From: Boswellia sacra
Lineage: Eukaryota; Streptophyta; Magnoliopsida; Sapindales; Burseraceae
Assembly (NCBI GenBank): GCA_013180625.2
Contig: SNVD02006121.1
Span: 182,576-246,575 of the forward strand
DNA: 64,000 bases
Reading direction: 5' to 3'
The first letter of the stretch is position 1. Every line of letters begins with the position of its first letter. The position numbers were made by a program, and so were the translations under genes. The notes under the pieces were generated by a model. The model worked only from the letters and a program-made list of their open reading frames with translations, had not been told where the DNA came from and made no database searches. This document shows positions 1 to 61,485 of this stretch, piece after piece.

Positions 1-1513
1 TTGTTTAATAAGAGCTTAGTTCATCATATTGCATTAAAAGTGTCATTAAATTTCTCAACTTAAGCATATTTGTAGTCTTTGCATCTTTGGAATTAACTTC
101 CTTTTAATTTTGGTTTTGTTACAGGTTCGGTAAAATGGGCATAACTCTCTATTTATAGATCAGAATGGTGCAATTCTTAATGTTTTAGAAAGCTGATTCA
201 ATTGTCTACAAGATTTCATTTCAAAGCATCATCAAATTCGGGCTCTTAGTGGACTAAAATTGGGCCTGAAGTGAACCCATCTACAGTCTCAGCCCAGTCT
301 GACCAGGCCTCAGTATTTAGACCGTATCTCTCAAAATACGTATCCAAATTGTGCAAATCAATATGTTCTAGAAAGCTGAGAGAAATATATACAACTTTGA
401 TGAAGGCATGTGATTAAAATTCGTAATATTTCAATGTCAAAATTGATGGTCAAAGTCGGTGCCTAATGATCCCAATTGTCAAAGATATTTACAACTAATA
501 TTTGACAATTATGCCTTTATAATTTGACAAGTTTGCCCCTGGATGTATCTATAAATAGAGGTGCCTTGTGACCCATTAGGGCATCTTGGTCTTGGCTGGA
601 ACATTTTGGCTTTGGCTAGGATCTTGTATTGTGTTTTGTGTGTTTATGTTATTAATGAATTTCCTTTTTCTTGCATTTTATTTTCTTTCTATTATAATGT
701 TCTTCTAATTTCTCTTTTGCTAAGGTGAAAGGGTGAAACCCTTGATATGAGAATAAGGATTCTCTAACCCTTAATATGTGCTTAATAATCTTAATCTTAT
801 AATGTTTATTCAATATGATTTATATTTAATTTCTTAATCAATCTTGACACCACTCGTAAAGTGGAGGTCTTGATCCATTGTCGACAATCCTTGGCACATC
901 AAATGCTTGGATCCTTTCTAGATGATGTATGGTTCTTCCTTACCGACTGTCTAGTTAGGAACCTTGATTTAAGAGACAGGTTGTAGACATATGTGATTGG
1001 CACATTGGATGCTTGAACCCATTTACAAGAAGTGGTATAAATATTGGTAATGAAACAAATATAATTCATATAACTAAAATGGGTAATTATCCTTATTTGA
1101 AATATCAAGGGCGGATCCCCTAACCTTAGCCTTCATTGTTATTGTGTTAATTCCTCTTGTATTTTAATTATTCTATTGTTTATGAACTTTTTATTTTATT
1201 TACCATGGTAGGTTCTACCACCTTATGAAATTGTTCTTTAATTTATTATGGTTGGTTATACCACCTATTTCCATGGATGGTTTTACCTCCTCTTGCTTTT
1301 TGTTTTATACTTGAATGGTCGGTAATATCGCCTACCATCTTACATATTTATTGATATTATCTTGTCATTTCTTTGAATTATTCATATCATATTTGCTTAT
1401 CTTATAATTTGTAATGCTAAAATCCTCTTCCTCGTGGATCGACCCCGGTCTCACCGGGATTATTACTTCGACACTCCTATACTTGGGAGACAATCCCTTT
1501 TTCGGATGTGTCA
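1..1513 (+). repeat. 5' LTR of element A (first ~20 bases outside the window)
   Basis: Aligns along its length with 9995-11510; position 1 matches about 10015. It ends in GTGTCA just before the primer site. It contains a TATA box (550-557) and, near the 3' end, four short imperfect hairpins at about 1204-1345. A further copy in inverse orientation lies at 55150-56604. Confidence 0.93.
550..557 (+). promoter_or_regulatory. LTR TATA box of element A
   Basis: TATAAATA within CTATAAATAGAGG, a strong plant TATA context. It is repeated at the same place in the 3' LTR (about 10563-10570) and, inverted, in the LTR of copy B near 56040. Transcription would be expected to start some 30 bases downstream; no start site was measured. 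Confidence 0.6.
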
Positions 1514-1519
1514 AGTTTT

Positions 1520-1537
1520 TGGCGCCGTTGTCGGGGA
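1520..1537 (+). other. Primer-binding site, tRNA-Asp type
   Basis: TGGCGCCGTTGTCGGGGA starts seven bases after the LTR. It is complementary to the 3' end of plant tRNA-Asp(GTC) with one apparent mismatch. It fixes the 3' boundary of the LTR and the start of minus-strand cDNA synthesis. Confidence 0.8.
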
Positions 1538-1651: not shown

Positions 1652-3299
1652 ATGAAAATTTGGTCACGAACATCTAGTGGTAGACTTGTTAGAAAAACAT
1701 CATCTTCCTTAGAAAACATAACCGACAATCATGAGGAAATATTCACGGATGAAGGGGACAACCGTTCGTAACAAAATGATCAAAACCAACGAAGAACCCT
1801 TAGAGACTACATGAATCTGGTAAGGACTAGTGCACCATCTTGTGTAGTTTCTCCTCCAGATTCAATCCATTTCAATTTCAAACCAAGTTTTGTTCGACTT
1901 CTACCCACTTTTCATGGCCTTGACATGGAGAACCCATATTCGCACTTGAAACTCTTTGAAGAGGTATGTAGCTCCTACACTGACCCAAATTGTAGCATAA
2001 ACACCATTAGATTAAAGCTTTTTCCTTTTTCTTTAAAAGATAAAGCTAGAACATGGCTACAAAATTTGAGGGCGAATTCCATTAGTTCATGGGATGAGAT
2101 GAAACAACAATTTTTGAAAAAATTTTTTCCTACCCATAGAACAAATTCTCTTAAAAGACAAATTTCTGATTTCTCTCAAAAACAGGGGAAAACCCTTTAC
2201 CAATGTTGGGATAGGTATAAGGAACTACTTAATACCTGTCCTCACCATGGGTTTGAAACTTGGAGAATAGTTTGCACACTTCTATGAAGGGTTAACACCT
2301 CAAGATAGGCAACTAGTGGAATTAATGTGTAATGGAGAATTTAAAGAAAAAGACCCTGAGGAAGCACTTGACTTCCTAGATTCCTTAGCAGAAAAGGCAC
2401 AAAATTGGGACACTGTTGGCACCTATGAGGTACCAAGCAAGGCCCAAACCTCGACATCCAATAGAGGTATTTACAACCTTAGGGAAGACCATGACCTTCA
2501 AGCCAAATATGCATCCCTAGCTAGAAAAGTCGAGGCTTTAGAAATGAAAAAGAGTGGTCAATTGAATTCTATTCAAGAAAATGTCTGTAACATTTGTGAT
2601 GACAATGACCATTCTACTGATAATTGCCCAACTTTACCTGCCTTTAGGGAATGTCTCCATGAAGAAGCCAATGCCTTGAACACTTTCAAAAGGCCAAATC
2701 ACAATCCATATTCACAAACCTACAATCCTGGTTGGAGAAATCATCCAAATTTTAGCTGGAAAAATGGCAATCATGCACAATCTTCACAAGTCCCTTTTCA
2801 AACACGACAAAATTTTCAAAATTCTCATGATCATGCATATGCTCCTCCTCCTAGGAATGACTTTGAAGAAACATTGCATTCATTCATTACAAAGCAAGAG
2901 ACTTTCAATAGTCAAACTGCTCAAACATTAGCAAATTTATCAGAAACTCTTGCAAAATTTGCATCTACATTTAGCATCCAAGAGAAAGGAATATTTCATT
3001 CTCAGACATTGCAAAACCCCAAAGATCAATCTAACTCAAATGCAGGGAGTTTAAGTAACCATTATTTTGACCAAGCCAAGTCAGTCATGACCTTTCGCAA
3101 TGGTAAGATTGTTGAAAAACACATTCCTGACCCTTGTGAGAAAGAAGAAGAATCGATCTCTAAAGGACAGGAAGAGGTGGCCAAACCAATACCTAGCGAA
3201 GAGGAAACCATATCCCCATTTGTGCCTCCATTTCCTCAAGCATTAGCCACACAAAAGAAGGCAACTCATAATTCTGAAATCTTTGAAATTTTCAAATAG
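1652..3299 (+). pseudogene. gag: gag of element A (capsid/nucleocapsid), broken
   Basis: An ATG at 1652 is in frame with the reading block from 1811, so it is the likely original start, but a TAA near 1768 interrupts it. The first block (to 2285) is typical plant gypsy Gag, with the FHGLDMENPYSHL segment and a retrotrans_gag core rich in W and F. A frameshift near 2285 moves reading to the frame of 2316-3299, where a zinc-knuckle-like CNICDDNDHSTDNC segment and Q/N-rich spacer follow. An in-frame TAG at 3297-3299 closes this block, and the same frame continues into protease. Gag would form the virus-like particle and package element RNA. As it stands it cannot be made full length. Confidence 0.85.
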
Positions 3300-5640
3300 G
3301 TAAAGGTCAACATTCCCTTTCTTGATGTGATCAAACAAGTACCTTCTTATGCAAAATTTTTGAAAGACTTGTGCACTGTAAAAAGAAAATTGAATGTGAA
3401 AAAGAAGGCCTTCCTAGCTGAGCAAGTAAGTGCCATTCTTCAAAACAATAATACAATGAAATATAAGGATCCAGGTTGTCCTACAATTTCATGTGTTATT
3501 GGAGACCATAAAATTGAACAAGCTTTACTTGATCTTGGTGCTAGTGTGAATTTGCTTCCATACTCGGTTTTTCAAAAACTCAATCTAGGTGAGTTAAAAC
3601 CGACTTCTGTAACTTTTTTACTTGTTGATAGATCAATTAAAGTACCAAGAAGAGTAGTAGAAGATGTATTAGTTCAAGTTGATAAATTCATTTACCCAGT
3701 GGATTTTATCATCTTGGACACACAACCAGTGGAAGTAAACAATTCAATTCCTGTTATTTTAGGGCGTCCATTTCTAGCTACTTCTAATGCTTTGATTAAT
3801 TGCAGGAATGGAGACATGAAGCTATCATTTGGGAACATGACATTAGAACTTAATGTTTTTAATATGTGCAAACAACCAAATGAAGAAGAAGATGAAGTTG
3901 ATGAAGCCAATGTAATTGAATCTATTGTGGAAGATCACATCCAAAAAGGGAGTTCTTCTGACCCTTTGGAAACTTGTCTTATGAATTCATTAGAATCAAG
4001 CATGAAACTAGAGTCTGATCTTTCTGATATATATTCTTTATTGGATTGTGCACAGGTGATGGAAAAAGGCTCAAAATCAAGATTTGAAGAATTGGGGCAA
4101 ATGAATGAAAGCAAGGAAGATGAAGCTCCCAAGTTAGAATTGAAGCCCTTACCTGAAGGACTGAAATATACATATCTTGGGGAGAATCAGACATATCCGG
4201 TGGTAATTTCTTCAGACATATCTTGATAGAAGTGCTTAAAAGGCATAAAAATGTAATTGGGTGGACTTTAAAAGATATAAAAGGCATTAACCCTTTAATT
4301 TGCACACATAGAATACATTTAGAGGAAAATGCCAAAACATCTCAACAACCTCAAAGGAGATTAAATCCACACATGAAAGAGGTCATTAGGGCTGAAGTTC
4401 TCAAACTACTTGATGTGGGAATTATCTATCCTATTTCTGATAGTAAGTGGGTAAGCCCTACACAAGTAGTACCTAAGAAATCTGGCATTACAGTAGTTAA
4501 AAATGAAAAGGGTGAATTATTGCCAACTCGTGTCTCATCTAGTTGGAGGATGTGCATTGATTATAGAAAATTAAATGCTGTCACTAGAAAAGACCATTTT
4601 CCCTTACGCTTCCTTGACCAAATTCTTGAAAGAGTAGTAGGAAACCCCTACTACTACTTTCTTGATGGATACTCAGGCTACTATCAAATCCCCATTGCAC
4701 TTGAAGACCAAGAAAAGACCACATTCACGTGCCCCTTTGGCACTTTTGCATTTAGGAGAATGCCTTTTGGACTTTGTAATGCTCCAGCTACTTTTCAAAG
4801 ATGCATGCTAAGCATTTTTAGTGATATGGTCGAGCATTGTTTAGAAGTTTTCATGGATGATCTAACTGTCTTTGGAAACTCTTTTGATAATTGTCTTGGA
4901 AACTTAGAAAAAGTCCTAAAAAGGTGTGTAGAAAAAGGTCTTATTTTGAATTGGGAAAAATGTCATTATATGGTCACTTCGGGAATTGTCTTAGGTCATG
5001 TGGTGTCTTCTAAGGGAATTGAAGTGGACAAAGCAAAAGTGGAATTAATTTTCCATTTGCCTCCACCAAAAACAGTTAAAGAGGTCCGTTCATTCTTAGG
5101 GCATGCTGGATTTCTATAGGAGGTTCATAAGAAATTTCAGTGCTATATCTAAACCTCTTTGTAACCTCTTAATAAAAGACACTTCCTTTGAATGGACTCA
5201 AGAATATCAAAATGCCTTTGATACATTAATTGGACTTTTAACAACTACTCCAATTATGCAATCTCCTGATTGGTCATTGCCTTTTGAATTAATGTGTGAT
5301 GCGAGCGACTATGCCGCTGGTGCTGTCTTAGGACAAAGAAAAGAAGGTAAGCCTTGTGTGATATACTATGCAAGTAGGACTTTAAATGATGCATACATGA
5401 ATTACACAACAACTGAAAAAGAACTACTTGCAGTAGTATTTGCATTGGACAAATTTCGATCTTATTTAATTGGCTCTCCAACAATTGTTTACACTGACCA
5501 TGCAGTTGTGAGATATTTAATGACTAAACAGGATGCAAAACCTAGATTGATACGGTGGATCTTATTGCTCCAAGAATTCAACATCACAATAAGGATAAGA
5601 AAGGAGCCGAAAATGTCGTTGCTGATCATCTTTCAAGACT
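3300..5640 (+). pseudogene. pol: protease, reverse transcriptase and RNase H of element A, broken
   Basis: The frame of gag resumes after the TAG at 3297. An aspartic protease core reads DLGASVNLLP (codons near 3531-3560), followed by a spacer. A frameshift near 4222 moves into the RT frame (4223-5119), which shows SSWRMCIDYRKLNAVT, the GLCNAPATFQ box and the catalytic FMDD motif (near 4850). Another frameshift near 5110 leads into the RNase H block to about 5590, with [12 protein letters not shown] and [11 protein letters not shown] further frameshift near 5590 precedes the linker [10 protein letters not shown]. The enzyme would copy element RNA into DNA and remove RNA from the hybrid. Catalytic motifs survive but the frame does not. 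Confidence 0.88.
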
Positions 5641-7002
5641 AACGACAAAGACATTAATTGAAACTTCACCTATCAATGATTCTTTTCCTGATGAATTTTA
5701 TTTTCCGTTGCCATTGTACCTTGGTTTGCTAACATTGTAAATTTTCTTGCGACAGGGAAAATGCCACCTCATTGGAATGCTCAAGACAAAAGAAAATTTT
5801 TAACCGAGGTGAAAAATTTTTACTGGGATGACCCATATCTGTTCAAAGATTGTCCAGACCAAATAATGAGAAGATGCATACCCGACAGTGAGGTAAGTAG
5901 TGTCATTAACTTTTGTCATTCTGAAGCATGTGGAGGATATTTTTCATCTAGAAAAACAGCTGTTAAAATCTTGCAATGTGGATTTTATTGGCCCATCTTA
6001 TTTAAAGACGCACATGCATTTTGCAAAACATGTGAAAATTGTCAAAAATTGGAATCCATTTCAAAAAGAAACATGTGCCTTTGAATCCCATTCTAATTGT
6101 TGAAATCTTTGATTATTGGGTATTGATTTTATGGGACTCTTTCCACCGTCATTTGGTTTTGTGTACATTCTTGTGGCAGTAGACTATGTTTCAAAATGGG
6201 TCGAGGCAATTCCATGTCGAAACAATGATCACAAACAGTTGTCAAATTCTTGAAAGAGAATATCTTGAGTAGATTTGGAATTCCTCGAGCCATTATTAGT
6301 GATGGAGGTACACATTTTTGTAACAAACCATTTGAAACTTTAATGAAGAAATATGGAATAACCCATAAAATTTCTACACTTTATCACCCACAAACAAGTG
6401 GACAAATTGAATTAGCTAATAGGGAGATAAAACAGATCTTAGAAAAAACGGTTAACCTAAATCGTAAAGATTGGTCTTTAGGACTTAATGATGCACTTTG
6501 AGCTTACCGAACTGCTTTTAAAACATCATTGGGAATGTCTCCTTATAGATTAGTTTATGGAAAACCTTGTCACTTGCCAGTGGAAATTGAACATAAAGCT
6601 TATTGGGCCATTAAAACATTTAACACAAACTTGAATGATGCTTGCAAGTTACGAAAACTCTAACTGAGTGAACTTGAAGAAATCAGGAATGAGGCTTATG
6701 AAAATTCCAAAATCTACAAAGAAAAAATGAAGGTTTTTCATGACAAATCCATTGTTAGAAAATCTTTTGAACCTTCAAAAAAAGTTCTTTTGTATGATTC
6801 AAGATTGCATTTGTTTCCTGGTAAACTTCGGTCTCGTTGGACTGGGCCTTTCATTGTTAAAAATGTTTTCCCTCATGAAGCAATTGAAATTGAGAACCCA
6901 AAGAATGGTAATGTGTTTAAAGTTAATGGACAACGGTTAAAACCATTCTTTGAAAATTTTGACCAAAACGAAGAGTCCATTGCTTTAATTGATCCTTTTT
7001 AG
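5641..7002 (+). pseudogene. int: integrase of element A, broken
   Basis: The block from 5761 carries the zinc-binding N-terminal domain (H in VINFCHSEACGGYF, then CKTCENCQ). A frameshift near 6090 precedes [10 protein letters not shown] and [12 protein letters not shown] of the catalytic core. Another shift near 6235 leads to [15 protein letters not shown] and [10 protein letters not shown], giving the D,D,E core. A TGA at 6499-6501 replaces an expected Trp, and a TAA lies at 6661. The C-terminal domain is open from 6727 to 7002 ([14 protein letters not shown]). No chromodomain follows, as expected for Athila/Tat rather than chromovirus elements. The same region of copy B is at 59573-60808 on the other strand. 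Confidence 0.88.
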
Positions 7003-7118
7003 GGATTGATTTTTCCCGGTCAAGTGGCGGATACGGTACTCCGTGACCTTTAAAGTCGGTTTTTCAGTTCCTTCAAAACTATTGCTCACCTTGCATTCAT
7101 TTTCCTTTCTTTTCTCGT

Positions 7119-7499
7119 ATGGACACCCTTCTCTCAAATCTGCACAAACATTTTCCCTCTCTTCCTCCAAATGATTTGCTCAAAATTTACAAAGCTCGTG
7201 CAGAAAGACTAAGGATGCTGATGTGTAAGGGTATGCCTGTCGAAGTAAGATGGTTAATTGAAGCCAAGGTTCAATTTTCCTATGAATTTTCAGATAATCT
7301 TGTGTCTCACATGCCAGGTATGGGAAAAAGCTCTTATGCCAAAAAGCGAAGAGCGAAAAGGTTACAAGTTTGTCCCAGATGTGCAAAATGGACTTGTAAC
7401 CAACGTTGCCGCTCCTTGGGATATTTGTCTAATAATCGAGAGGATAAACTACAGTTCATCAAGAATGGACTGAGTAAGGAGTCTTTGGATGATATCTGA
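7119..7499 (+). CDS. Small basic cysteine-rich protein, carla/allexivirus NABP-like (accessory ORF 1)
   Basis: 126 codons, 117 bases after integrase, open throughout. Residues 1-66 are a leader with a Leu-rich start and a central GMPVEVRWLIEAK segment. Residues 70-81 are strongly basic (GKSSYAKKRRAK). Four cysteines follow at 85, 88, 93 and 97 (C-x2-C-x4-C-x3-C), then a short tail with NNREDKLQFIKNG. By my reading, this order (hydrophobic leader, basic SxYA-K/R block, Cys cluster, tail with an FI-x2-G element) is that of the cysteine-rich nucleic-acid-binding proteins of carlaviruses and allexiviruses, several of which modulate host gene expression or RNA silencing. The Cys spacing is shorter than I would expect there, so the match is by architecture only. 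The TGA end is at the same place in copy B (59065-59067). Function in the element is unknown. Confidence 0.65.
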   Translation: MDTLLSNLHKHFPSLPPNDLLKIYKARAERLRMLMCKGMPVEVRWLIEAKVQFSYEFSDNLVSHMPGMGKSSYAKKRRAKRLQVCPRCAKWTCNQRCRSLGYLSNNREDKLQFIKNGLSKESLDDI

Positions 7500-7694: not shown

Positions 7695-7974
7695 AACCAG
7701 AGGAAGATGTGAGCCACAGTCACAACTACCTGTACATATGCATGCGTGCCGCATTTTTGAACTTTAATGCCTATTAGTTGTCATTTTTTTGAATTTGTTT
7801 GACTTATAGTGTCTTATTTCATCATCTTTTTGAATTTTTATGCATTCGTGTCAAATTTTTCAACAAGCAACTGAGCTACCTATTTGGATGTCATCATTAG
7901 CATATCTTTTTGCACTCCATAAATACCACATCTCTTGTTCTCTTCTTCACACATAGTTAGAGAGTTGCATAGAC
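7695..7974 (+). promoter_or_regulatory. Inter-ORF spacer with TATA-like box ahead of LOG
   Basis: About 280 AT-rich bases without a reading frame. CCATAAATACC (TATA-like, 7918-7927) lies 48-57 bases before the LOG ATG and is followed by a pyrimidine-rich CTCTTGTTCTCTTCTTCACAC stretch, which looks like a core promoter plus 5' UTR. The same box (CCATAAATATG) and pyrimidine stretch are kept in copy B near 58610-58625. This suggests, but does not prove, separate transcription of LOG. Confidence 0.4.
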
Positions 7975-8580
7975 ATGGAGGGAACTTCACAACATCGAAT
8001 CCAAAGGATATGTGTATTCTGCGGATCTCGACCGGGTAAAAGTGAGGAGTTTGTAGAAGTAGCAAACTATCTTGGTAGGCTACTGGCTGAAAGAAAGATT
8101 CATGTGGTTTATGGGGGAGGTAGCCTCGAGTTAATGGGTTGTGTGTCAACAGATGCACATGTAGGAGGTAGTCAAGTTTTAGGAGTTATTCCTAAAGCTT
8201 TGGCCATAGAAAACATCGTTGGAAAAACGATTGGGACGGAGTTACAGGTCTTCTCTATGCATGAACGCATGGCACATATGCTCATCAATTCAGATGCCTT
8301 TATTGCTTTACTAGGTGGCTTTGGTACTCTTGAAGAAATTTTTCAAATTGCCTCTTGGGCCCAACTGAATCTCCATCAAAAACCCATATGTTTGTTGAAT
8401 GTTAAAAATTTCTTTGATCCTTTGATAAGTTTTGTTGATGCAGCTGTGGAACAAAATTTTATCCCTCATTCAGCGAGAAAGATCCTTGTTTCTGCCACTT
8501 CTGCTGGTGAGTTACTTGACAAATTACAAGAAGTTGAGTATGAACCTGACCCAGCTAGTACTCAAATTAATTGGGCATGA
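7975..8580 (+). CDS. LOG-like: LOG-like cytokinin riboside 5'-monophosphate phosphoribohydrolase carried by retrotransposon
   Basis: 201 codons, single exon, ending TGA at 8578-8580. Plant LOG enzymes release active cytokinin bases from their nucleotides in one step and are cytosolic or nuclear proteins of about 200-230 residues; this has full family length. The N-terminal Rossmann segment reads RICVFCGSRPGKSEEF (11-26), then VVYGGGS (44-50), GVIPKAL (70-76), the MHER segment (95-98) with the conserved Arg98, and GGFGTLEE (114-121) with the conserved catalytic-type Glu121. Three near-invariant positions differ: Leu113 replaces the Pro of the PGGxGT motif, Met99 replaces the Lys after Arg98, and Glu52 replaces a Gly in the GGGSxGLMG stretch. 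Host LOG genes normally have several introns, so the intronless form points to capture through RNA. Whether it is active is open. Confidence 0.88.
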   Translation: MEGTSQHRIQRICVFCGSRPGKSEEFVEVANYLGRLLAERKIHVVYGGGSLELMGCVSTDAHVGGSQVLGVIPKALAIENIVGKTIGTELQVFSMHERMAHMLINSDAFIALLGGFGTLEEIFQIASWAQLNLHQKPICLLNVKNFFDPLISFVDAAVEQNFIPHSARKILVSATSAGELLDKLQEVEYEPDPASTQINWA

Positions 8581-9980
8581 GGGCAAAACAAAAAGTGCAA
8601 ATTGGATCTGAATCTCCGTTTGTAATTTTTTTTTCTTGTCCTTTATTTTATTTTATTTTATTTTTAGCATGTTATTTTATGAGTCTTTCAGGTCATCTCT
8701 CTTGAATAACAGAAGCTTCAGGTAATGTCTCCTATCCTTTATCTCTCTATATTTAAACATTGAGGACAATGTTTCATTTGGTTGGGGGGGAAGGATAGTA
8801 GACATAAGTGTGTCTTGAATTTTTTTTTCTTGCAAAAAAAAAGTGAGTTAGTAATTAGATTCAGAGTGCGGTGTAAGGAGTTCATATCCTCTTGAGACGC
8901 ATTCTGGGTCAGGAATGGCAGAGTAGGGAGGGCTAGTTTGAACTCTTAAAACCCATTCTAACCAATTTGTCATTTTATTTTGATCTTGTGAACTCATTTT
9001 AGCTAATTTGATATTATTTAGTCTTGATTTTTGAATTTTATAATAAGGAGGTCTTATTCATTTCACTTTGAATTATTCAAATCTATGAACTCTCACAACC
9101 TTATCATTTAAAATTGTGTGCTTATGTACTCATTAAGCAAGTATTCATGAACCTTTCTTCGCGCACACACACATACCTTGATGCATGATTGTGGGTGGCA
9201 AAATGAAATGTTGTAATATTTGAGTTCTTTTGTTTTGTTTAGGATAACAGCACAAAGGAAGGGAAAATTTAAAAAAAGAAGAAAAAAAGCCAAAAAAAAG
9301 CCAAAAAAAAGTGAAAAAAAAGAAAGAAAAGAGAGAAAGCAATTGTGGATAAGTTTGGTCTCGTACCCTCCTTAATTCGAGCAATTAAGCCTGAGGGGTG
9401 CCTCAACACCTAATACCCTAAGACCAACTGGTTTAGGAGCTATTGGCTCAAAGCTCGCTACATGGATTAAGGAGAAAGCTTAATGGGATTGAACATTGCA
9501 CTATCCACAAGTTTCTAAGCAAAATAAAGCATCGGCAACCCGAGTCGTTAAGCTCGTAGGGGTGTCTTAACACCTAATGCCCTAAGGCCAACTGGTCTGG
9601 GAGTCATTAGCCTAAGGCTCGCTACATGGGTTAAAGATGCATTCCTTCCAAAAAAAAAAGAGAGAGAAAAAAAAATATGTATATATAAAATGAATAATTG
9701 CCCCTTACCTAAGGTTGTTAGCCTTAACAAATATTATAACCGATATGGCTTCTTTCTAATAAGCCCCATAGTCATGTGTTGACTGAGCACAAAAAGAAGG
9801 TTTATAGATATCTTGACCGAAGGGTACATAAGTTATAAAAAAATAATAATAATAATAATTGGTTGGGAGTTTTTTTTTTTGGATAAAATCAAAGAGAGTG
9901 CAATAATGACCACCTTGGATGTAAAATTCTATAAATCACTTCTAAATAATAACACTTTAATTGCTAGGGACTAGCAATAA
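8581..9980 (+). other. Long 3' untranslated region of element A with palindrome, G-tract and duplicated structured motif
   Basis: About 1.4 kb without a supported reading frame. It holds a perfect 6-bp-arm palindrome, ACATTGAGGACAATGT (8757-8772), then a purine run GGGGGGGAAGG (8784-8794) that resembles a second polypurine tract. It also holds two imperfect copies of a roughly 95-base motif (about 9377-9475 and 9541-9636) and A-rich and (AAT)n runs (9276-9330, 9838-9860). Copy B keeps these parts in inverted order between 56620 and 57950. Confidence 0.7.
9377..9636 (+). repeat. Two imperfect ~95-bp repeats in the 3' UTR of element A
   Basis: Both copies share GGGGTG-CTNAACACCTAATNCCCTAAG, a CCAACTGGT palindromic core and GCTCGCTACATGG. 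They are about 165 bases apart. The same pair is present in copy B (about 56960-57055 and 57130-57222), so the duplication predates the spread of the family. Function unknown; the internal self-complementarity hints at RNA structure. Confidence 0.65.
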
Positions 9981-9994
9981 GCTAGTTGGGGGTG
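9981..9994 (+). other. Polypurine tract of element A
   Basis: GCTAGTTGGGGGTG lies directly before the 3' LTR start TGATGAAC. It is the expected primer site for plus-strand synthesis. The equivalent in copy B reads GCTGGTTGGGAGGTC on the minus strand (about 56605-56619). Confidence 0.7.
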
Positions 9995-11510
9995 TGATGA
10001 ACACTTAAATATGTATGTTTAATAAGAGCTTAGTTCATCATATTGCATTAATAGTGTCATTAAATTCCTCAACTTAGCATATTTGTAGTCTTTGCATCTT
10101 TGGAATTAATTTCCTCTTAATTTTGGTTTTGTTATAGGTTCGGTAAAATGGGAATAACTCTCTATTTATAGATCAGAATGGTGCAATTCTTAACGTTTTG
10201 GAAAGCTGATTCAATTGTCTATAAGATTGCATTTCACAAGCATCATCAAATTTGAACTCTTAGTGGACCAAAATTGGGCTTGAAGTGAACCCATCTACAG
10301 TCTCAGCCCAGTCTGACCAGGCCTCAATATTTGGACCGTATCTCTCAAAATACGTATCCAAATTGTGCAAATCAATATGTTCTAGAAATCTGAGAGAAAT
10401 ATATACAACTTTGATGAAGACATCTGATTAAAATTCGTAATATTTCAATGCCAACATTGATGGTCAATGTCGGTGCCTAATGATCCCAATTGTCAAAGAT
10501 ATTTACAACTAATATTTGACAATTATGCCCTTGTAATTTGACAAGTTTGTCCCTGGATGTATCTATAAATAGAGGTGCCTTGTGACCCATTAGGGCATCT
10601 TGGCCTTTGGCCGCTAGGATCTTGTATTGTGTTTCTCTCTTGTTTATGTTATTAATGAATTTCCTTTTTCTTGCATTTTGTTTCTTTTTCTTATAATGTT
10701 CTTCTAATTTCTCTCTTTTGCTAAGGTGAAAGGGTGAAACCCTTGATATGAGAATAAGGATTCTCTAACCCTTAATATGTGCTTAATAATCTTAATCTTA
10801 TAATGTTTATTCAATATGATTTATATTTAATTTCTTAATCAATCTTGACACCACTCGTAAGGTGGAGGTCTTGATCCATTGTAGACAATCATTGGCACAT
10901 CAAATGCTTGGATCCTTCCTAGACGTTGTATGATTCTTCCTTACCGACACAAGTCTAGTTAGAAACCTTGATTTATTGTAGATATATGGTGATTGACACA
11001 TTGGATGCTTGAACCCATTTACAAGAAGTGGTATAAATATTGGTAATGAAACAAATATAATTCATATAACTAAAATGGGGTAATTATCCTTATTTGAAAT
11101 ATCAAGGGCGGATCCCCTAACCTTAGCCTTCATTGTTATTGTGTTAATTCCTCTTGTATTTTAATTATTCTATTGTTTATGAACTTTTTATTTTATTTAC
11201 TATGGTAGGTTCTACCACCTTATGAAATTGTTCTTTAATTTACTATAGTTGGTTATACCACCTATTTCCATGGATGGTTTTACCTCCTCTTGCCTTTTGT
11301 TTTATATTTGAATGGTCGGTAATACCGCCTACCATCTTACATATTTATTGATATTATCTTGTCATTTCTTTGAATTATTCATATCATATTTGCTTATCTT
11401 ATAATTTGTAACGCTAAAATCCCCTTCCTCGTGGATCGACCCCGGTCTCACCGGGATTATTACTTTGACACTCCTATACTTGGGAGACAATCCCTTTTTC
11501 GGAAGTGTCA
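9995..11510 (+). repeat. 3' LTR of element A
   Basis: 1516 bases, TGATGA...GTGTCA. It matches the 5' LTR from base 1 of the window, with scattered differences, including a changed stretch near 10600 against 590-610. TATA box at about 10563-10570. Sequence after 11510 belongs to a different repeat. Confidence 0.93.
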
Positions 11511-24586: not shown

Positions 24587-27500
24587 ATGGAGGATCTCCT
24601 TAGTTGTAAGGATCTATATGACCCTATAGAATTTGAAGGGCAGAGACCTGAGACAGAAAAAGAGGCAGAGTGGAAGAAAATTAACCGAAAATGCATCGGT
24701 CAGATCAGACAATGGATCGATCATAGTGTCTTCCACCATGTAGCCAAAGAAACAGATGCATATACTCTATGGAAAAAATTAGAGAGTATGTATCAAGCCA
24801 AGTCAGCACGGAACAAAGCCATCCTGATGAGACGGCTTGTGAACTTGAAGTTGCTGAGCGGAACTCCTGTAGCAGAACATACAAGTGAGTTCCAGAACTT
24901 GGTGAATCAGTTGACAGCAGTCGAGTTACAGCTTGGTGACGAGGAACAAGCACTTCTACTTCTCAGTTCCCTTCCAGATTCATGGGAGACACTAGTGGTC
25001 TCCATCAGTAATTCAGCACCCGGAGGCAGACTTACCCTATCAATGGTTAAAGATGCCTTAATGAACGAGGAGGCGAGAAGAAAAGATGCAGGCGCCAGTC
25101 AAGATGAAGCCTACATCACAGAAAATCGAGGAAGACAGTCTCGAGGTGAAGACTGGAGAAGAGGTAGAAGCAAAAGCAGAGGCAGATCAAGGGGTAGGTC
25201 ATCAGATGGGCGGAGACCAACATACAAGTGCTACAACTGTGGCAAAGAGGGACATTTGAAGAGAAATTGTCGCAGTCTTCGGAAGCAGAACCAGGAGAGT
25301 TCACAGGCACAAAGCAACGAAGAACCACGAGTTACAGTGGTAGAAGATGTAACCATCTGTGCAGAAGAGACGTGCTTTCACACAGCAGATCAAGGAGTAG
25401 AATGGGTCATTGACACAGCAGCTTCCTGCCACGTCACTCCTTGCAGAGAGATCTTCACCACGTACAAAGCAGGAGACTTTGGGATAGTGAAGATGGGTAA
25501 CAACAGCACCGCCAAAATCATGGGAATTGGTGATATTCAATTCCAAACGAACGTCGGATACAAAATAACTTTGAAGGACGTTCGTCATATGCCAGATCTT
25601 CGACTTAACTTGCTCTCAGTAAAAGCCTTTGATCAGCAAGGTTATGAGAGCTGCTTCACCAACGGTACATGGAAGATGTTGAAAGGGGTCATGGTGGTTG
25701 CTCGAGGTAAATTATGTGACAATCTTTACAGGACTCATGTAAAGATAAACGGAGAGAGCCTTCATGTAGCAGAGCACATGGTACCTCTAGATTTGTGGCA
25801 TAAAAGGCTCGGTCACATGGGTGAAAAGGGTTTATCAACCCTTCAGAAAAAGAAGCTGATCACTGTTTCCAAGGATGCAGCGTCTCATCCTTGCGACTAT
25901 TGTTTGTACGGGAAACAACGGAGGGTGTCATTCAGCTCCTCATCAGTGAGAAAATCAAAGCTATTGGAGCTAGTACACAGTGATGTATGCGGACCTCTCG
26001 AAGTCGAGTCCTTAGGCGGTAAAAGGTATTTCTTGACCTTTATTGATGATGCATCTCGGAAAGTGTGGGTTTATTTCCTCAGAACGAAGGATGAAGTTCT
26101 GGAGAAGTTCAAGGAGTTTCACGCCATGGTAGAACGTGAAACGGGTAAGAAATTAAAATGCCTTCGATCAGATAACGGAGGCGAGTATACCTCCAGAGAG
26201 TTCAATGCCTACTGTCGAAGATATGGCATTCGACATGAAAGAACAGTCCCACGCACACCACAACACAATGGAGTGGCCGAGAGGATGAATCGAACCATCA
26301 TGGAACGAGTCAGAAGCATGCTCAGATTGGCTAAGTTACCCAAGCCATTCTGGGGGGAGGCAGTTCGCACCGCCTGTTACTTAATCAACAGAGCACCATC
26401 GGCACCACTGAACTTCGAGATTCCTGAAAAGGTATGGTCTAACAAAAAGCCCTCCTATAATCATTTGAAAGTGTTTGGTTGTTTAGCCTTCGTACATGTA
26501 TCCAAGGAGCTCAGACAGAAGCTCGATGCAAGAACTGTTCCATGTATCTTCATCGGTTATGGAGATGAAGAATTCGGATACAGATTATGGGATCCCAAAG
26601 AAAAGAAAGTCATCCGGAGCAGAGATGTCGTATTTCACGAAGACCAAACATATGAAGACGCTGAAAAGACAACAATATCTACAAATCCCACTAGCAGTGC
26701 CCCAGATATTGTTGCAGATTCTACCCCAACACCAAATGCTACAAGAAATGACGAGGTACCAGACGAAGTTCCAGAAGCAGATCAGGAGGAAGAAAATGAA
26801 GAGATTGCTGAGCCGGGGGAGCCACAATCACCTATAGAAGCTGCTATACCTCCTGGAAATGAAGAACCTCAGTTACGACGATCTGAGCGAGGTCGGATTC
26901 CGTCGAGGAGATATCCGGAATCAGAGTACACACTGCTTACTGATGAGGGGGAGCCAGAAAGCTTTCATGAAGCTTTATCTCATCCAGACAAAGAACGATG
27001 GCTGCATGCAATGCAAGATGAGATGAATTCTCTAGAGAAGAACAAAACTTATGAACTGGTCGAACTCCCAGACGGAAAGAAGGCACTGAAGAACAAGTGG
27101 GTATTCAAGCTCAAGAAAGATGGAACAGGAAAGGTGATAAAGCACAAAGCCCGATTGGTGGTAAAAGGATTCCTTCAGAAGAAAGGAATTGACTTTGATG
27201 AAATATTCTCACCGGTAGTAAAAATGTCCTCAATCCGCGTCATCCTCGGATTGACAGCAAGTCTTGATTTGGAGCTTGAACAGATGGATGTGAAGACAGC
27301 ATTTCTTCATGGAGACTTGCATGAAGAAATCTACATGGAGCAGCCAGAAGGGTTCGAGGTTCAAGAAAAAGAACACCTCGTGTGCAAGCTCAAAAAGAGC
27401 TTGTATGGCCTCAAACAAGCACCAAGGCAATGGTACAAGAAGTTTGACTCCTTCATGGTGAGTCATGGGTACAAAAGAACCGCTGCAGACCAATGCGTCT

Positions 27501-55149: not shown

Positions 55150-56604
55150 TGACACATCCGAAAATAGGATTGTCTCCCAAGTATAGGAGTGTCGACGTAA
55201 TAAACCTGGTAAGACCGGGGTGATCCACGAGGAAGGGAATTTTACTGCTACAAACTATAAGGTAAGCAAATATGATATGAATAATTAAGATGATATTAAC
55301 AAAAGGTGGTAAAACCATCCATAGAAATAGGAGGTAAAACCTATCATAGCAAATGAAAAAACAATTTCATAAGCAATAAATAAGAATAATTAAATTACAA
55401 AAGTAAGAGGAATTAACGCAATAATAATGAAAGCTAAGGTTAGGGGATCCGCCCTTGATATATGAAATAAGGATAAGTAACCCAATTATAACTCAATTGG
55501 AATCCACATATAAAGAAGGTTCCAATTGTCATTTAAGCCCAATTTTAGTTATATGAATTATATTTATTCCATTACCAATATTTATACCACTTCTTGTAAA
55601 TAGGTTCAAGCATCCAATGTGTCAATCATCATATGTCTATAACAAATCAAGGTTCCTAACTAGATTCGTGTCAGTAAGGAAGAACCATACGACATCTAGA
55701 AAGGATCCAAGCATTTGATGTGCCAAGGATTGTCTACAATGGATCGAGACCTCCACTATATAAGTGGTGTCAAGATTGATTAAGAAAATAAATATAAATC
55801 ATATAAAATGAACAACACAAGATTACAATTATTAAGCACATGTCAAGGGTTAGAAAATCATTATTCTTATATCAAGGGTTTCACCCTTTCACCTTAGCAA
55901 AAGAGAATTTAGCAAGACATTATAAAAGAAAGAAAACAAATTGTAAGAAAAAGGAAATTCATTAATAACATTAAAACACAAACACAATAACAAGAGATCC
56001 CAGCCAAGGCCAAGATGCTCTAATGGGTCACAAGACACTTTTATTTATAGATATATTCAGGGGCAAACTTGTCAAATTACAAAGAAACATTTGTCAAATA
56101 TTTTATTGACAATTGGGGTAATTAGGTGAACCAATTTTGACCACCAATTTCGGCATCGAATTATTGAGAATTTTGATCACTTGTCTTCATGAAATTGTAG
56201 ATATTGCTCTCAGCTTTCTAGAATATATTGATTCATATGATTTGGATATGTGTATCAAGAGATATGGTCAAAATACTAAGGCATGGTTAGGCTGGGCCGA
56301 AACTGCATATAGGTTCACTTCAAGCCCATTTTTGGTCTACTAAGAGCCCGAAATTGATGATTCTTGTGAAATACAATCTTGTAGATAATTTAATCAGCTT
56401 TCCAAAATATTAAGATATGCACCATTCGGATCTATAAATGAAATGCTCATTTTACCGAACCTACAACAAAGCTAAAATTAAGAGAAAGTTAATTCCAAAG
56501 ATGCAAAGAGTACAAATATACTTAAGTTGAGGAATTTAATGATACTATTAATGTAATATGATGAATTAAGCTCTTATTAAGCATACATATTTAAGTATTC
56601 ATCA
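55150..56604 (-). repeat. 3' LTR of LOG-element copy B
   Basis: 1455 bp, TGATGAATACTT...GGATGTGTCA on the minus strand, homologous throughout to 9995-11510. It is preceded by the purine tract GCTGGTTGGGAGGTC. Flanking bases on the left are ATAAA; the other flank is lost. Confidence 0.92.
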
Positions 56605-56619
56605 GACCTCCCAACCAGC

Positions 56620-57965
56620 TTATTGTTATTCCCTAGCAATTAAAGCGTTATTATTTAGAAGTGATTTATAAAATTTTACATCCAAGGTGGTCATTATTGC
56701 ACTCTCCTTGATTTTATCCAAATAAACAATCTCTCAACCAATTTTTTTTTAAATAACTCATGTACCCTTCAGTCAAGATATTAATAAACCTTTTTTTTTT
56801 GTGCTCAGTCGACACATGACTGTGGGGCTTATTAGAAAGAAGCCATATCAGTTCTAATATTTGTTAAGGCTAACAACTTTAGGCAAAGGCATTCATTTGT
56901 CATTATTTTTGTATATATATATATATTTTTGCTCTTTTTTTTTGAAAGAATGCATATTTAACCCATGCAGCGAGCCTTAGGCTAGTGACTCCCAAAACAG
57001 TTGGCCTTAGGGCATTAGGTGTTAAGACACCCCTATGAGCTTAATGACTCGAGTTGCCAATGCTTTATTTTTTCTTAGAAACTTGTGAATAGTACAATGT
57101 TCAATCTCATTAATCTTTTTCCTTAATCCATGTAACAAGCTTTGGGCCAATAGCTTCCAAACCAGTTGGTCTTAGGGTATTAGGTGTTAAGGCACCCCTC
57201 GGGCTTAATTGCTCGAATTAAGGAGGCTACAAGACCAAACTTATCCACAATTGCTCTTTTCTTTTTTTTCTTTTTTTCTTTGAATTTTCCCCTTCCTTTT
57301 GTTGTTATCCTAAACAAAACAAAAGAACTTAAATATTACAACATTTCATTTCGCCACCCACAATCATGCGTCAAGGTATGTGTGTGTGTGAAGAAAGGTT
57401 CATGAATACTTGCTTAATGAGAACATAAGCACAAAGTTTATTGAATGATAAGGTTGTGAGAGTTCATAGATTTGAATAATTCAAAGTGAAATGAATAAGA
57501 CCTCCTTGTTATAAAATTCAAAAATCAAAACTAAATAATATCAAGTTAGTTAAAATAAGTCTTCGAAAATGCAAAAACAAAATGACAAATTGGTTAGAGT
57601 GTGTTTCAAGAGTTCAAACTAACTCTCTTTACTCTGTCATTCCTAAACCAGAATGCGTCTCAAAAGGATTTGAACTCCTTACACCGCACTCTAAATCTAA
57701 TTACTAACTCACTTTTTTTTTACAAGAAAAAGAAAATTGAAGACGCACTTATGTCTACTATCTTTTCCCCCCAACCAAAAGAAACATTGTCTTTAATATT
57801 TAAATGTAGAGAGATAAAGTATAGGAGACGTTACCTAAAGCTTCTGTTATTCAAGAGAGACGACCTGAAAGACTCATAAAATAAAATGCTAAAAATAAAA
57901 GACAAGACAAGAAAAAAAATTACAAACGGAGATTCAGATCAAATTTACACTTTTTGTTTTGTCCC
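56620..57965 (-). other. 3' UTR of LOG-element copy B
   Basis: No gene. Holds the two ~95-bp structured repeats (about 56960-57055, 57130-57222), poly-T/A runs and a decayed version of the ACATTG/CAATGT palindrome (near 57783-57800), in the order expected from element A. Confidence 0.7.
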
Positions 57966-58566
57966 CCTGACCAATTAATTTGAGTTATAGTTAGGTCAGG
58001 TTCATACTCGACTGCTTGTAATTTGTCAAGTAACTCACTAACAGAAGTGGCAGAATATCTATCGCACCAAATGAGGGATAAAATTCTGTTCTACAACTGC
58101 ATCAACAAAGCTTATCAAAGGATCAAAGAAATTTTTAACATTCAACAAACCTATGGGTTTTTTATGGAGATTTAGTTGGGCCCAAGAGGCAATTTGAAAA
58201 ATTCCTTCGAAAGTACCCAAGCCACCTCGCAAAGCAATAAAGGCATCCGAATTGATAAGCATATATACCATGCGTTCATGCATAGAGGAGACCTGTAACT
58301 CCTTCCCAACCGTTTTTCCAACGATGCTTTCTACAGCCAAAGCTTTAGGAATAATACCTAAAACTTGACTGCCTCCTATAAGTACAGTTGTTGACACACA
58401 ACCCATTAACCCGAGGATACCTCCCTCATAAACCACATGAATCTTTCTTTTGGCTAATAGCCTACCAAGATAATTTGCTACTGCTACAAACTCTTTACTT
58501 TTACCCGATCGAGATTCACAAAATAAACATATCCTTTGGATTTGACGTTTTTGAAGTTTTCTCCAT
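57966..58566 (-). pseudogene. LOG-like: LOG-like gene of copy B, inactivated
   Basis: Minus strand from the ATG at 58566. A one-base insertion within the first ten codons shifts the frame, and the family frame resumes after it. Only 58436-58059 is open in that frame. A deletion and stop follow NFIPH near 58065. Compared with element A: GGGS became EGGI; the MHERM segment is the same, with Met in place of the family's Lys; the PGG-type motif reads RGGLGTFEG, losing both the Pro and the conserved Glu. At that Pro site copy A has CTA and copy B CGA, each one change from CCA, so the parent probably had Pro. No protein of full length can be made. Confidence 0.85.
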
Positions 58567-59064
58567 GTCTATACAACTCTCTAACTATGTGTGAAGAGGA
58601 GAACAAGAGATGTCATATTTATGGAGTGCAAAAAGGTATTCTAATGATGACATCTAAATAGGTAGCTCGGTTGTTTGTTGAAAAAGTTCAACAATAATGC
58701 ATAGAAATTCAAAAAAAAGAGATGATGAAATAAAACACCATAAATGCACAAGTCAAACAAAAGATACAAATTCAAAAATGACAGCTGTAATGTATTAAAA
58801 TTTAAAAATGATAGCACACATACATATGTACAGGTAGTTGTGACTGTGGCTCACATTTTCCTCTGGTTTTACGTCCAGAAACGGCTTAAACACCTTCTAT
58901 TAGTTGGGGATATGCTTCCCATCCCGTTTTCTTATAAACTAGCAAACATAGGCATTTTGAGTCAGATTCCCAAGACTATAACGTTCCTACTCATCTTGGA
59001 ATTGTGTCCACAATTTAAAATTTTCACACTGCACAAGTCCACAAGAATGTGTCTCAAGAGTCAC

Positions 59065-59445
59065 TCAGATATCATCCAAAGACTCCTTGCTCAGTCCATT
59101 CTTGATGAACTGTAGTTTATCCTCTTGATTATTAGACAAATATCCCAAGGAGCGGCAATGCTGGTTACAAGTCCATCTTACACATCTGTCACAAACTTGT
59201 AACCTTTTCGCTCTTCACTTTTTGGGGTAAGAGCTTTTTCCCAAACCTGGAATGTGGGAAACAAGATTATCAAAAAATTCACAAGAAAATCGAACCTTGG
59301 CTTCAATTAACCATCTTAAATCAGTAGGAATACCCTTTCGCATCAACATCCTTAGTCTTTCTACACGATCTTTGTAAATTTTAAGCAAATCATTTTGGGG
59401 AAGAGAGGGAAAATGTTTGTGCAGATTTGAGAGAATGGTATCCAT
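59065..59445 (-). pseudogene. Cysteine-rich (carla/allexivirus NABP-like) ORF of copy B, inactivated
   Basis: Aligned with 7119-7499. The leader is well kept (MDTILSNLHKHFPSL). A CGA-to-TGA change in the basic block (near 59215) stops translation just before the cysteines. Downstream, all four cysteines are still encoded (CDRC and CNQHC), and the final TGA is at the same codon as in element A. A short in-frame upstream extension to 59493 exists but the conserved ATG is at 59445. Confidence 0.7.
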
Positions 59446-59572
59446 GTGAAAAAAATGAGAGAGAAGAAAAGAAAATGAATGCAAGGTGCGCAACAGTTTT
59501 TAGGGAACTGAAAAACCGACTTTAAAAGCCACGGATTACCGTATCCGCCACTTGAACGGGAAAAATCAATCC

Positions 59573-61485
59573 TTAAAAAGGATCGATTAAAGCAATGGAC
59601 TCTTCATTTTGGTCAAAATTTTCAAAGAATGATTTTAACCGTTGTCCATTAACTTTAAACACATTACCATTCTTTGGGTTCTCAATTTCAACTGCTCCAT
59701 GAGAGAAAACATTTTTAACAATGAAAGGCCCAATCCAACAAGACCGAAGTTTACCAAGAAATAAGTTCAATCTTGAATCATACAAAAGAACTTTTTGTGA
59801 AGGTTCAAAAGATTTTCTAACAATGAATTTGTCATGAAAAACCTTTATTTTTTCTTTGTAGATTTTAGAATTTTCATAAGCCTCATTCCTGATTTCTTCA
59901 AGTTCACTCAGTTGGAGTTTACGTAACTTGTAAGCATCATCCAATTTTGTGTTAAATGTTTTAATGGCCCAATAAGCTTTATGCTCAATTTCTACAGGCA
60001 AGTGACAAGATTTTCCATAAACTAATCTATAAGGAGACAAGATTTTGAAAGCAGTTCGGTAAGCCCAAAGTGCATCATTAAGTCTTAAAGACCAATCTTT
60101 ACGGTTTGGGTTAACAGTCTTTTCTAAGATCTGTTTTATCTCCCTATTAGCTAATTCAAGTTGTCCACTTGTTTACAGGTGATAAGGTGTAGAAATTTTA
60201 TGGGTTATTCCATATTTCTTCATTAAAGTTTCAAATGGTCTGTTACAAAAATGTGTATCCCCATCACTAATAATGGCTCGAGGAATTCCAAATCTACACA
60301 AGATAGTCTCTTTCAAGAATTTGATAACTGTTTTGTGATCAGTGTTTCGACATGGAATTGTCTCGGCCCATTTTGAAACATAGTCTACTGCAACAAGAAT
60401 GTACACAAAATCAAATGAAGGTGAAAAAGGTCCCATAAAATCAATACCCCATCAGTCAAAGATTTCAACAACAAGAATGGGATTCAAAGGCATCATGTTT
60501 CATTTTAAAATGGATCCCAATTTTTGACAATTTTCACAAGTTTTACAAAATGCATGTACATCTTTAAATAAGGTGGGCCAATAAAATCAACATTGCAAGA
60601 TTTTAGTAGCTGTTTTTTTAGACGAAGAATGTTTTCCACATGCTTCAGAATGACAAAAATTAATGACACTACTTACCTCATTATCGAGTATGCATCTTCT
60701 AATTATTTGATCCGGACAATATTTGAATAGATATGGGTCATCCCAATAAAAATTTTTCGCCTCAGTCAAAAACTTCCTTTTGTCTTGAGCATTCCAATGA
60801 GGTGGCATTTCTCCTGTTGCAAGGAAATTTACAATGTTAGCAAACTAAAGTACAGTAGCAACGGAGAATAAAAATTCATCAGGAAAAGAGTCATTGATAG
60901 GTGAAGTTTCAATTAATATATCTGTCGTTAGTCTTGAAAGATGATCTGCAACGACATTTTTGGCTCCTCTCTTATCCTTTATTGTGATGTTGAATTCTTG
61001 GAGCAATAAGATCCACCGTATCAATCTAGGTTTTCTATCCTGTTTAGACATTAAATATCTTACAGCTACATGGTCAGTGTAGACAATCGCTGGAGAACCA
61101 ATTAAATAAGATCAAAATTTGTCCAATGCAATTACTACTGTAAATAGTTCTTTTTCAGTTGTTGTGTAATTCATTTATTCATCATTTAAAGTCCTACTTG
61201 CATAGTATATCACATAAGGCTTACCTTCTTTTCTTTGTCCTAAGACAGCACAACGACATAATCGCTTGCATCATACATCAATTCAAAAGGCAAGGACCAA
61301 TTGGGAGATTGCATAATTGGAGCAGTTGTTAAAAGTCCAATTAACTTATCAAAGGCATTTTGACATTCTTGAGTCCATTCAAAATTTTTCTTTTTCAGTT
61401 GTTGTGTAATTCATTTGTGCATCATTTAAAGTCCTACTTGCATAGTATATCACATAAGGCTTACCTTCTTTTCTTTGTCCTAAGT
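59573..61485 (-). pseudogene. pol: Integrase and RNase H remnants of copy B
   Basis: Minus strand: RNase H tail (from 61480; 61051-60845 reads [18 protein letters not shown] and [13 protein letters not shown]), integrase HHCC domain (60808-60587, VINFCHSEACGKHS), core (60436-60173, VDYVSKWAETIPC and IISDGDTHFCN) and C-terminal domain, open from 60040 to 59573 ([20 protein letters not shown]). Several stops and shifts. It is the same polymerase type as element A. Confidence 0.85.
61148..61483 (-). repeat. Duplicated ~97-bp RNase H segment at the truncation point
   Basis: 61148-61244 and 61387-61483 are nearly identical (TTTCAGTTGTTGTGTAATTC ... CTTTGTCCTAAG). The second copy ends within two bases of the start of element C at 61486. 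Confidence 0.85.

Follow-up and report, generated by a model that had tools for sequence, protein, structure and literature searches.

Plant retrotransposons are usually viewed as gag-pol machines that hide from their host, and the non-autonomous elements of the TR-GAG type are organised as LTR-gag-LTR, without pol. LOG proteins release active cytokinin, and EAR motifs recruit TOPLESS. Two Athila-like elements with similarity to LOGL4 were reportedly found by Steinbauerova et al. 2011. More recently, YgdH (LOG) domains were noticed in gypsy consensuses of Citrus and Populus (Alvarado-Marchena et al. 2022, PMC9289625), in an account whose available part calls this finding 'in line with' Steinbauerova et al. 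2011 (Genetica) and comes with no analysis of gene partner, tail, selection or copy number. The original prediction knew of no described LTR-retrotransposon family with a LOG cargo; such cargo had, however, already been reported (PMC9289625, citing Steinbauerova et al. 2011). Similarly, orchid gypsy elements possess a host-derived enzyme fixed as cargo, an AlkB-type RNA demethylase, which is a different enzyme and has in-vitro activity data, according to the same available part (PMC9289625). Two other kinds of proteins matter here: the carlavirus p12 protein (of CVB), which activates transcription and suppresses silencing (PMC7588395, available part), and an effector of a pathogen, which ends in an EAR motif and binds TOPLESS (PMC7446885, available part).

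The window, i.e. the whole 64,000-nt stretch of Boswellia sacra DNA analysed here (GCA_013180625.2, contig SNVD02006121.1, 182,576-246,575, forward strand), contains a decaying member of a Ty3/gypsy family present in many copies, which harbours a cassette made of CRP and an intronless plant-type LOG between pol and the 3' LTR. Like the LOG-bearing Athila-like elements of Citrus and Populus, this gypsy element has an extra ORF of the LOG family, and LOG proteins named Populus share its clade. LOG cargo is not mentioned in the available part of PMC7264820; term searches of the available texts gave nothing on LOG cargo in PMC6317226, nor on LOG or carlavirus-type cargo in either PMC11963269 or PMC11728184. 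The search, which most subscription journals lay outside, turned up no publication dealing with CRP as a partner, with the EAR-like tail or with selection acting on element LOGs. The presence of LOG in gypsy elements is already known; the CRP partner, the LxLxL tail, the selection and the retention in pol-less elements are new as far as searched.

The samples were as follows. The element-type LOG relatives are the best 120 of 2738 matches in public proteins, where the label 'element-type' derives from clade and copy number, the genomic context being seen in the source genome only. The control set consists of the best 120 of 7999 host-LOG matches, which are of the LOG1/LOG3 type (At5g11950 was added in the tree only). 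The search of the source genome covered the 638.6-Mb assembly containing the window and yielded two sets of loci, overlapping by one locus: 24 loci picked by LOG similarity, and 29 loci picked with a query made of CRP-end/spacer DNA, the ranking of which is independent of LOG.

The window element displays, between its LTRs, the gag-PR-RT-RH-INT order of Ty3/gypsy LTR retrotransposons, and is one of them. On the forward strand, the 5' LTR (1..1513, boundaries from alignment, the window beginning about 20 bases within it) adjoins a candidate primer binding site (tggcgccgttgtcgggg, 1520..1536). Then come a gag region of two ORFs (1811..3299; Pfam Retrotrans_gag 1e-20 for 1811-2284), a protease region (3327..4226; Pfam Asp_protease_2 3.9e-05), the reverse transcriptase and RNase H (4223..5642; RVT_1 2e-29 and RT_RNaseH 9.1e-37) and an integrase in several pieces (5761..7002; Integrase_H2C2 3.6e-11, and rve 2.6e-06, which is under the Pfam cut-off). 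This pol is recognisable yet split over several frames. A polypurine tract (9984..9994) lies immediately 5' of the 3' LTR (9995..11510, from alignment, with boundaries identical in other copies). By blastn, with gaps counted, the 5' LTR and 10016-11510 share 94.0% identity; over 1486 gap-free columns the figure is 96.0%. An age derived from this divergence would depend on the rate assumed, and LTR dating was given no weight. With integrase pieces upstream and an LTR pair flanking it, LOG does lie inside a gypsy element, between integrase and 3' LTR, as originally predicted. The element probably belongs to the Athila lineage, judging from the look of its gag and from the presence of additional ORFs in the stretch from pol to the 3' LTR. 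An additional RNase H, the mark of the Tat lineage (PMC6317226, available part), was absent from the scanned pol ORFs, the scan covering parts of 3300-7100.

A second, partial copy (copy B, 55150..61484, reverse strand) was delineated by blastn and alignment to the window element. It comprises remains of RNase H and integrase (including the C-terminal piece of integrase, at 59848-59576, which the window element also keeps), a CRP with an internal stop (59445-59068), a frameshifted LOG (58566-57920) and an LTR (near 56583-55150). It shows the same integrase-CRP-LOG-LTR order as the window element, with 88% DNA identity, and is more decayed. The neighbourhood contains other sequences. Just past the 3' LTR, an ORF rich in lysine, which contains a tandem repeat of 21 bases (12350-11682, reverse strand), lies beside another ORF (12968-12651, reverse strand) with a sub-threshold match to PF20167 (putative plant transposon protein). 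Further away, there is a copia-type element (24587-28510, forward strand) with one open gag-pol ORF of 1307 codons (Pfam RVT_2, rve and Retrotran_gag_2), and another gypsy element (54610-50909, reverse strand), whose RT shares 57-63% identity with the RT of the LOG element; beside this gypsy element, tblastn found no match to LOG or CRP.

The element has multiplied, as predicted: besides the two copies of the window, querying the source genome with the window LOG returned at least 150 matches of 91-100% identity. The two window copies share the int-CRP-LOG-LTR order with dozens of loci. Four loci taken from the matches to a host-LOG query all belonged to a second element family, the LOG of which is 67-71% identical to the window LOG and ends with KLDLTLHL or KLDLKLHL. 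A CRP lies upstream of LOG in the four loci (in broken frames in one of them, and as a C-terminal part only in another, at a contig end), and two of the four, apparently near-copies of each other, have no ATG at the usual start.

The LOG ORF of the window copy (7975..8580, forward strand) comprises 201 codons and an in-frame stop. Its open reading frame was confirmed as a LOG by profile, Arabidopsis and structure matches: 1.6e-35 for Pfam Lysine_decarbox (PF03641, 122.5 bits for a cut-off of 27); 157.9 bits for NCBIfam TIGR00730 (cut-off 96.35), the LOG-family profile; 1.3e-56 for At2g37210, which we take to be LOG3 and to which it is about 50% identical; and 5.8e-51 for At5g11950. In addition, its AlphaFold model (mean pLDDT 84) best matches type-I LOGs among solved structures. 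LOG is thus the best match by both sequence and fold when weighed against other Rossmann-fold families. The ORF had also been called 'full-length', a description that does not hold: the stop at codon 202 occurs 15 residues before the end observed in other copies (codon 217), the listed relatives being mostly 215-217 aa long, and damage affects two LOG motifs. With its PGGxGT proline and the second glycine of its GGGSxGLMG loop both replaced, the window LOG lacks the PGGxGTxxE and GGGSxG patterns; this proline occurs in 106/120 and this loop glycine in 113/120 listed relatives. Beyond the early stop, a remnant C-terminal tail (8581..8628, forward strand; basic residues, then LxLxL) can still be read as the tail of the family. 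It was missed in the first reading because the early stop hides it in the window copy. A weak TATA-like box (7918..7925, forward strand), about 50 bases 5' of the LOG start in a stretch also present in copy B, may be a candidate internal promoter element.

As regards the partner gene, what the original prediction called 'CRP' was correctly placed in the int-CRP-LOG-LTR order, and its product (126 aa; 7119..7499, forward strand) is now identified as a carlavirus-type nucleic-acid-binding (zinc-finger) protein. It scored 29.4 bits against PF01623 (cut-off 20.9) and 27.3 bits against PF05515 (cut-off 23), and in the CRP alignment A2 these profiles matched 22/22 and 21/22 proteins, respectively, at E 0.01. 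The 120 listed CRP relatives, among which Populus, Xanthoceras, Acer, Orobanche and Striga are named, mostly display a zinc-finger-like cysteine pattern (105/120) and often measure 180-189 aa (68/120), the window CRP being shorter than many. The AlphaFold model of CRP is poor (mean pLDDT 65). The two genes travel together, since CRP lies upstream of LOG in 22/24 loci of the set picked by LOG similarity, and LOG lies downstream of the CRP end/spacer in 29/29 loci of the set picked by that DNA. Moreover, the public proteins P0003 (LOG) and P0122 (CRP) have the same source and each lies on a contig of 8723 bases, which suggests that they are on one contig. The PF01623/PF05515 domain is common to CRP and the cysteine-rich nucleic-acid-binding proteins of carlaviruses (CVB p12 type). 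Unlike CVB p12, the element CRP sits in a retrotransposon, where suppression of silencing is putative, by analogy.

The C-terminal LxLxL was found in 89/120 listed element-type relatives and in none of the 120 host LOGs or the 120 CRPs; 22 of the 31 relatives devoid of it are at most 210 aa long. Leucines occupy each of positions -1, -3 and -5 in 23 of 25 representatives, with positions -2 and -4 varying and a freer linker before them. The exact LxLxL occurs in 21/25 of them (shuffles: mean 0.08, maximum 3). These representatives share less than 80% identity and come from the 94/120 relatives that passed a filter on length and two basic residues near the end, a filter which biases basic-patch counts and excludes tail-less models, the leucines not being a filter criterion. 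A basic patch precedes LxLxL in most element-type LOGs. In the source genome, LxLxL is in frame in 22/24 loci of the LOG-picked set (it is beyond the stop in the window copy, and one copy has a methionine), and in the frame of LOG in 18/29 loci of the other set, sometimes after earlier stops. Chance leucines at the C-terminus were ruled out by the shuffles and by the host-LOG and CRP controls, and a peroxisomal C-terminal signal was considered and disfavoured. The two forms of the EAR motif are LxLxL and DLNxxP (PMC7446885, available part); the family displays the former, which the window copy has only past its stop, and one relative ends with DLNLTP, i.e. DLNxxP. By pattern match, the tail thus looks like an EAR-like (TOPLESS-docking) motif. 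Pathogen effectors such as HaRxL21 likewise have LxLxL at the C-terminus (PMC7446885, available part). Unlike HaRxL21, the element tail forms part of a hormone enzyme that a transposable element encodes, and its binding to TOPLESS is putative.

From these data, we propose that CRP and LOG constitute a host-manipulation cassette, a functional picture that we regard, as a whole, as somewhat probable. The mechanism would be the following. A LOG captured once from a host mRNA would still release active cytokinin, and its tail would carry it to the nucleus and bind TOPLESS-type corepressors via the EAR motif. CRP would dampen silencing, in the manner of carlavirus p12. Together, LOG and CRP would make the host cell permissive (a dividing or meristem-like state, with damped silencing or defence), which would favour inherited new insertions. 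In its most specific form, a bifunctional effector combining a cytokinin-activating LOG endowed with a nuclear TOPLESS-recruiting EAR tail and a silencing-suppressor-type CRP, both kept even by pol-less parasites, the proposal is a tentative one that we would not bet on, and real recruitment of TOPLESS by an active enzyme is equally conjectural. If the proposal is true, some plant retrotransposons act on host development and defence in a virus-like manner, which bears on how plant retrotransposons secure inherited insertions.

The alternative that survives best keeps an active cytokinin-activating LOG serving the element, with a tail that is not an EAR motif and binds Gag, CRP or a transport factor instead. 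It is a possible but rather unlikely reading. The conservation of the active site and the purifying selection described below need no TOPLESS, and LxLxL alone is insufficient for TOPLESS binding, as ten other LxLxL effectors of downy mildew failed to bind (PMC7446885, available part). Against this, the alternating leucines with freer positions between them, their extreme C-terminal place and the DLNxxP variant fit an EAR motif closely.

Concerning the enzyme itself, the element LOG shares with plant LOG (LONELY GUY) the fold and the catalytic Arg and Glu, and its activity is predicted. Arg98 and Glu121, which we take to be the catalytic residues, are both present in the window LOG and occur in 113/120 and 117/120 listed relatives, respectively. 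Unlike plant LOG, the element LOG is element-borne, intronless and in a clade of its own, and carries the basic and LxLxL tail in the family. Other nucleotides are the substrates of some LOG relatives, PpnN among them. It may be asked whether the element LOG acts on nucleotides generally (as an NMP phosphoribohydrolase that would shape nucleotide pools), or as a non-catalytic scaffold, rather than via cytokinin. The weak match to NF038390 in 9/27 and the score of the window protein on the LOG equivalog model NF058542, far below the cut-off (106 versus 300 bits), go in this direction. So does the loss of motif residues in some relatives. The three LOG motif patterns, strictly written, are all present in 59/120 listed relatives versus 108/120 host LOGs. 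We nevertheless judge this explanation improbable: in both sequence and fold, plant type-I LOGs are the closest proteins, and most relatives retain the catalytic residues.

The cassette is also found without pol. An upstream integrase was not found in 9/24 loci of the LOG-picked set, one of the nine being cut by a contig end. In eight loci (L011, L012, L013, L015, L016, L020, L022 and L024; flanks L029-L038), gag (window 3228-3242) is followed by about 530-560 unmatched bases and then by the equivalent of window position ~7012. They therefore lack protease, RT, RNase H and integrase. All eight pol-less elements have gag and LOG, and seven have CRP (L013 being devoid of most of it). In the pieces around six of these loci, the LTRs are 92.7-95.6% identical to those of the window where aligned along most of their length, and gag shows about 68-82% DNA identity to the window gag. 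The LTR pairs of four pol-less elements are 98.4, 98.6, 98.8 and, for the element of L013, 96.9% identical, as compared with 96.0% for the window copy. One pol-less element possesses an open gag ORF of 277 aa and a CRP ORF that runs uninterrupted as far as usual, in which one cysteine of the zinc finger is replaced. In the CRP-end/spacer set, the integrase end was not found in 15/29 loci. It follows from the anatomy of the pol-less elements that the cassette is kept without pol, alongside a different gag. Their layout is that of TR-GAG-type elements, i.e. LTR-gag-LTR without pol, and unlike these the pol-less relatives keep LOG and mostly CRP. A direct repeat with a unit of about 90 bases (9385-9473 and 9548-9637, 81% identical) lies between LOG and the 3' LTR of the window element; copies of this unit were matched in the downstream pieces L030, L032 and L034, and one unit in L036.

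The LOG and CRP of the family are under purifying selection. The between-family dN/dS has a median of 0.186 for LOG (0.15-0.21; 46 pairs) and is 0.164 for CRP (10 pairs), in copies that were picked by LOG similarity in both sets and with a LOG dS of 1.24, near saturation. Between the window copies A and B, dN/dS reaches 0.63 for LOG and 0.47 for CRP. In the 29-locus set, the 14 single-frame copies give a LOG pN/pS of 0.57, and the 9 open copies one of 0.39. A pN/pS of 0.18 obtained among LOG-ranked copies was discarded on account of bias, since that search orders copies by LOG similarity; the LOG-independent sample gave 0.39-0.57, and the case for selection rests on the between-family value. 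LOG copies open to the normal end do occur in the source genome: the first in-frame stop is at the normal end in 13/29 copies (codon 217 in 12 and codon 216 in one), in a count based on stops. A stricter count, with the full 201 residues matched in one piece, gives 9 open copies, and 7/29 copies remain when intact motif residues and the tail are also demanded. From these 13/29 normal-end stops and pN/pS values of 0.39-0.57, we conclude that many copies decay. Taking the selection values and the decayed copies together, copies thus decay once inserted, and the gene that is passed on seems to be preserved.

These values bear on the idea that LOG is a functionless passenger captured by transduction. 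Both the window copy and copy B are damaged, and transduced host genes are known in plant LTR elements (PMC7264820, available part). For individual dead copies, the passenger reading holds. For the family, the between-family dN/dS of 0.19 speaks against it, as do the two families in one genome, the tail that is common to families and the retention in pol-less elements, and we deem it slightly more improbable still than the action on general nucleotides. Our preferred reading remains that of a cassette acting on the host.

The phylogeny of LOG was built from 41/120 listed relatives, both window copies (copy B in part), 20/120 listed host LOGs, a piece of one Arabidopsis LOG (At5g11950) and two bacterial outgroups, the final tree being without P0037 and the B. 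subtilis row. In the resulting 65-protein tree, 43 element-type LOGs stand on one side of a branch (100/97), versus 21 host LOGs. Hence, the element-type LOGs group together, in a single clade that excludes the host LOGs sampled. The named sources of the 120 listed LOG relatives include Reevesia (56) and Diplodiscus (13), as well as Populus, Parasponia, Melia and Xanthoceras. In IMG/VR, the search for relatives among viral contigs gave 37 and 22 pattern matches, none confirmed, and a viral step remains compatible with this. That a host LOG gene would be merely flanked by LTRs, a possibility which the original prediction had raised against itself and for which no support was found, is hardly credible, being refuted by the repeated int-CRP-LOG-LTR order of both window copies and dozens of loci, and by the clade apart from the sampled host LOGs.

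The host-LOG query of the source genome likewise returned at least 150 matches, each of them a single stretch of 51-54% identity; by eye, they have no place in common with the at least 150 matches to the window LOG, and the four loci examined among them were all element-borne. Because of such element-borne matches, the LOG gene counts of plant annotations may be inflated by transposon copies.
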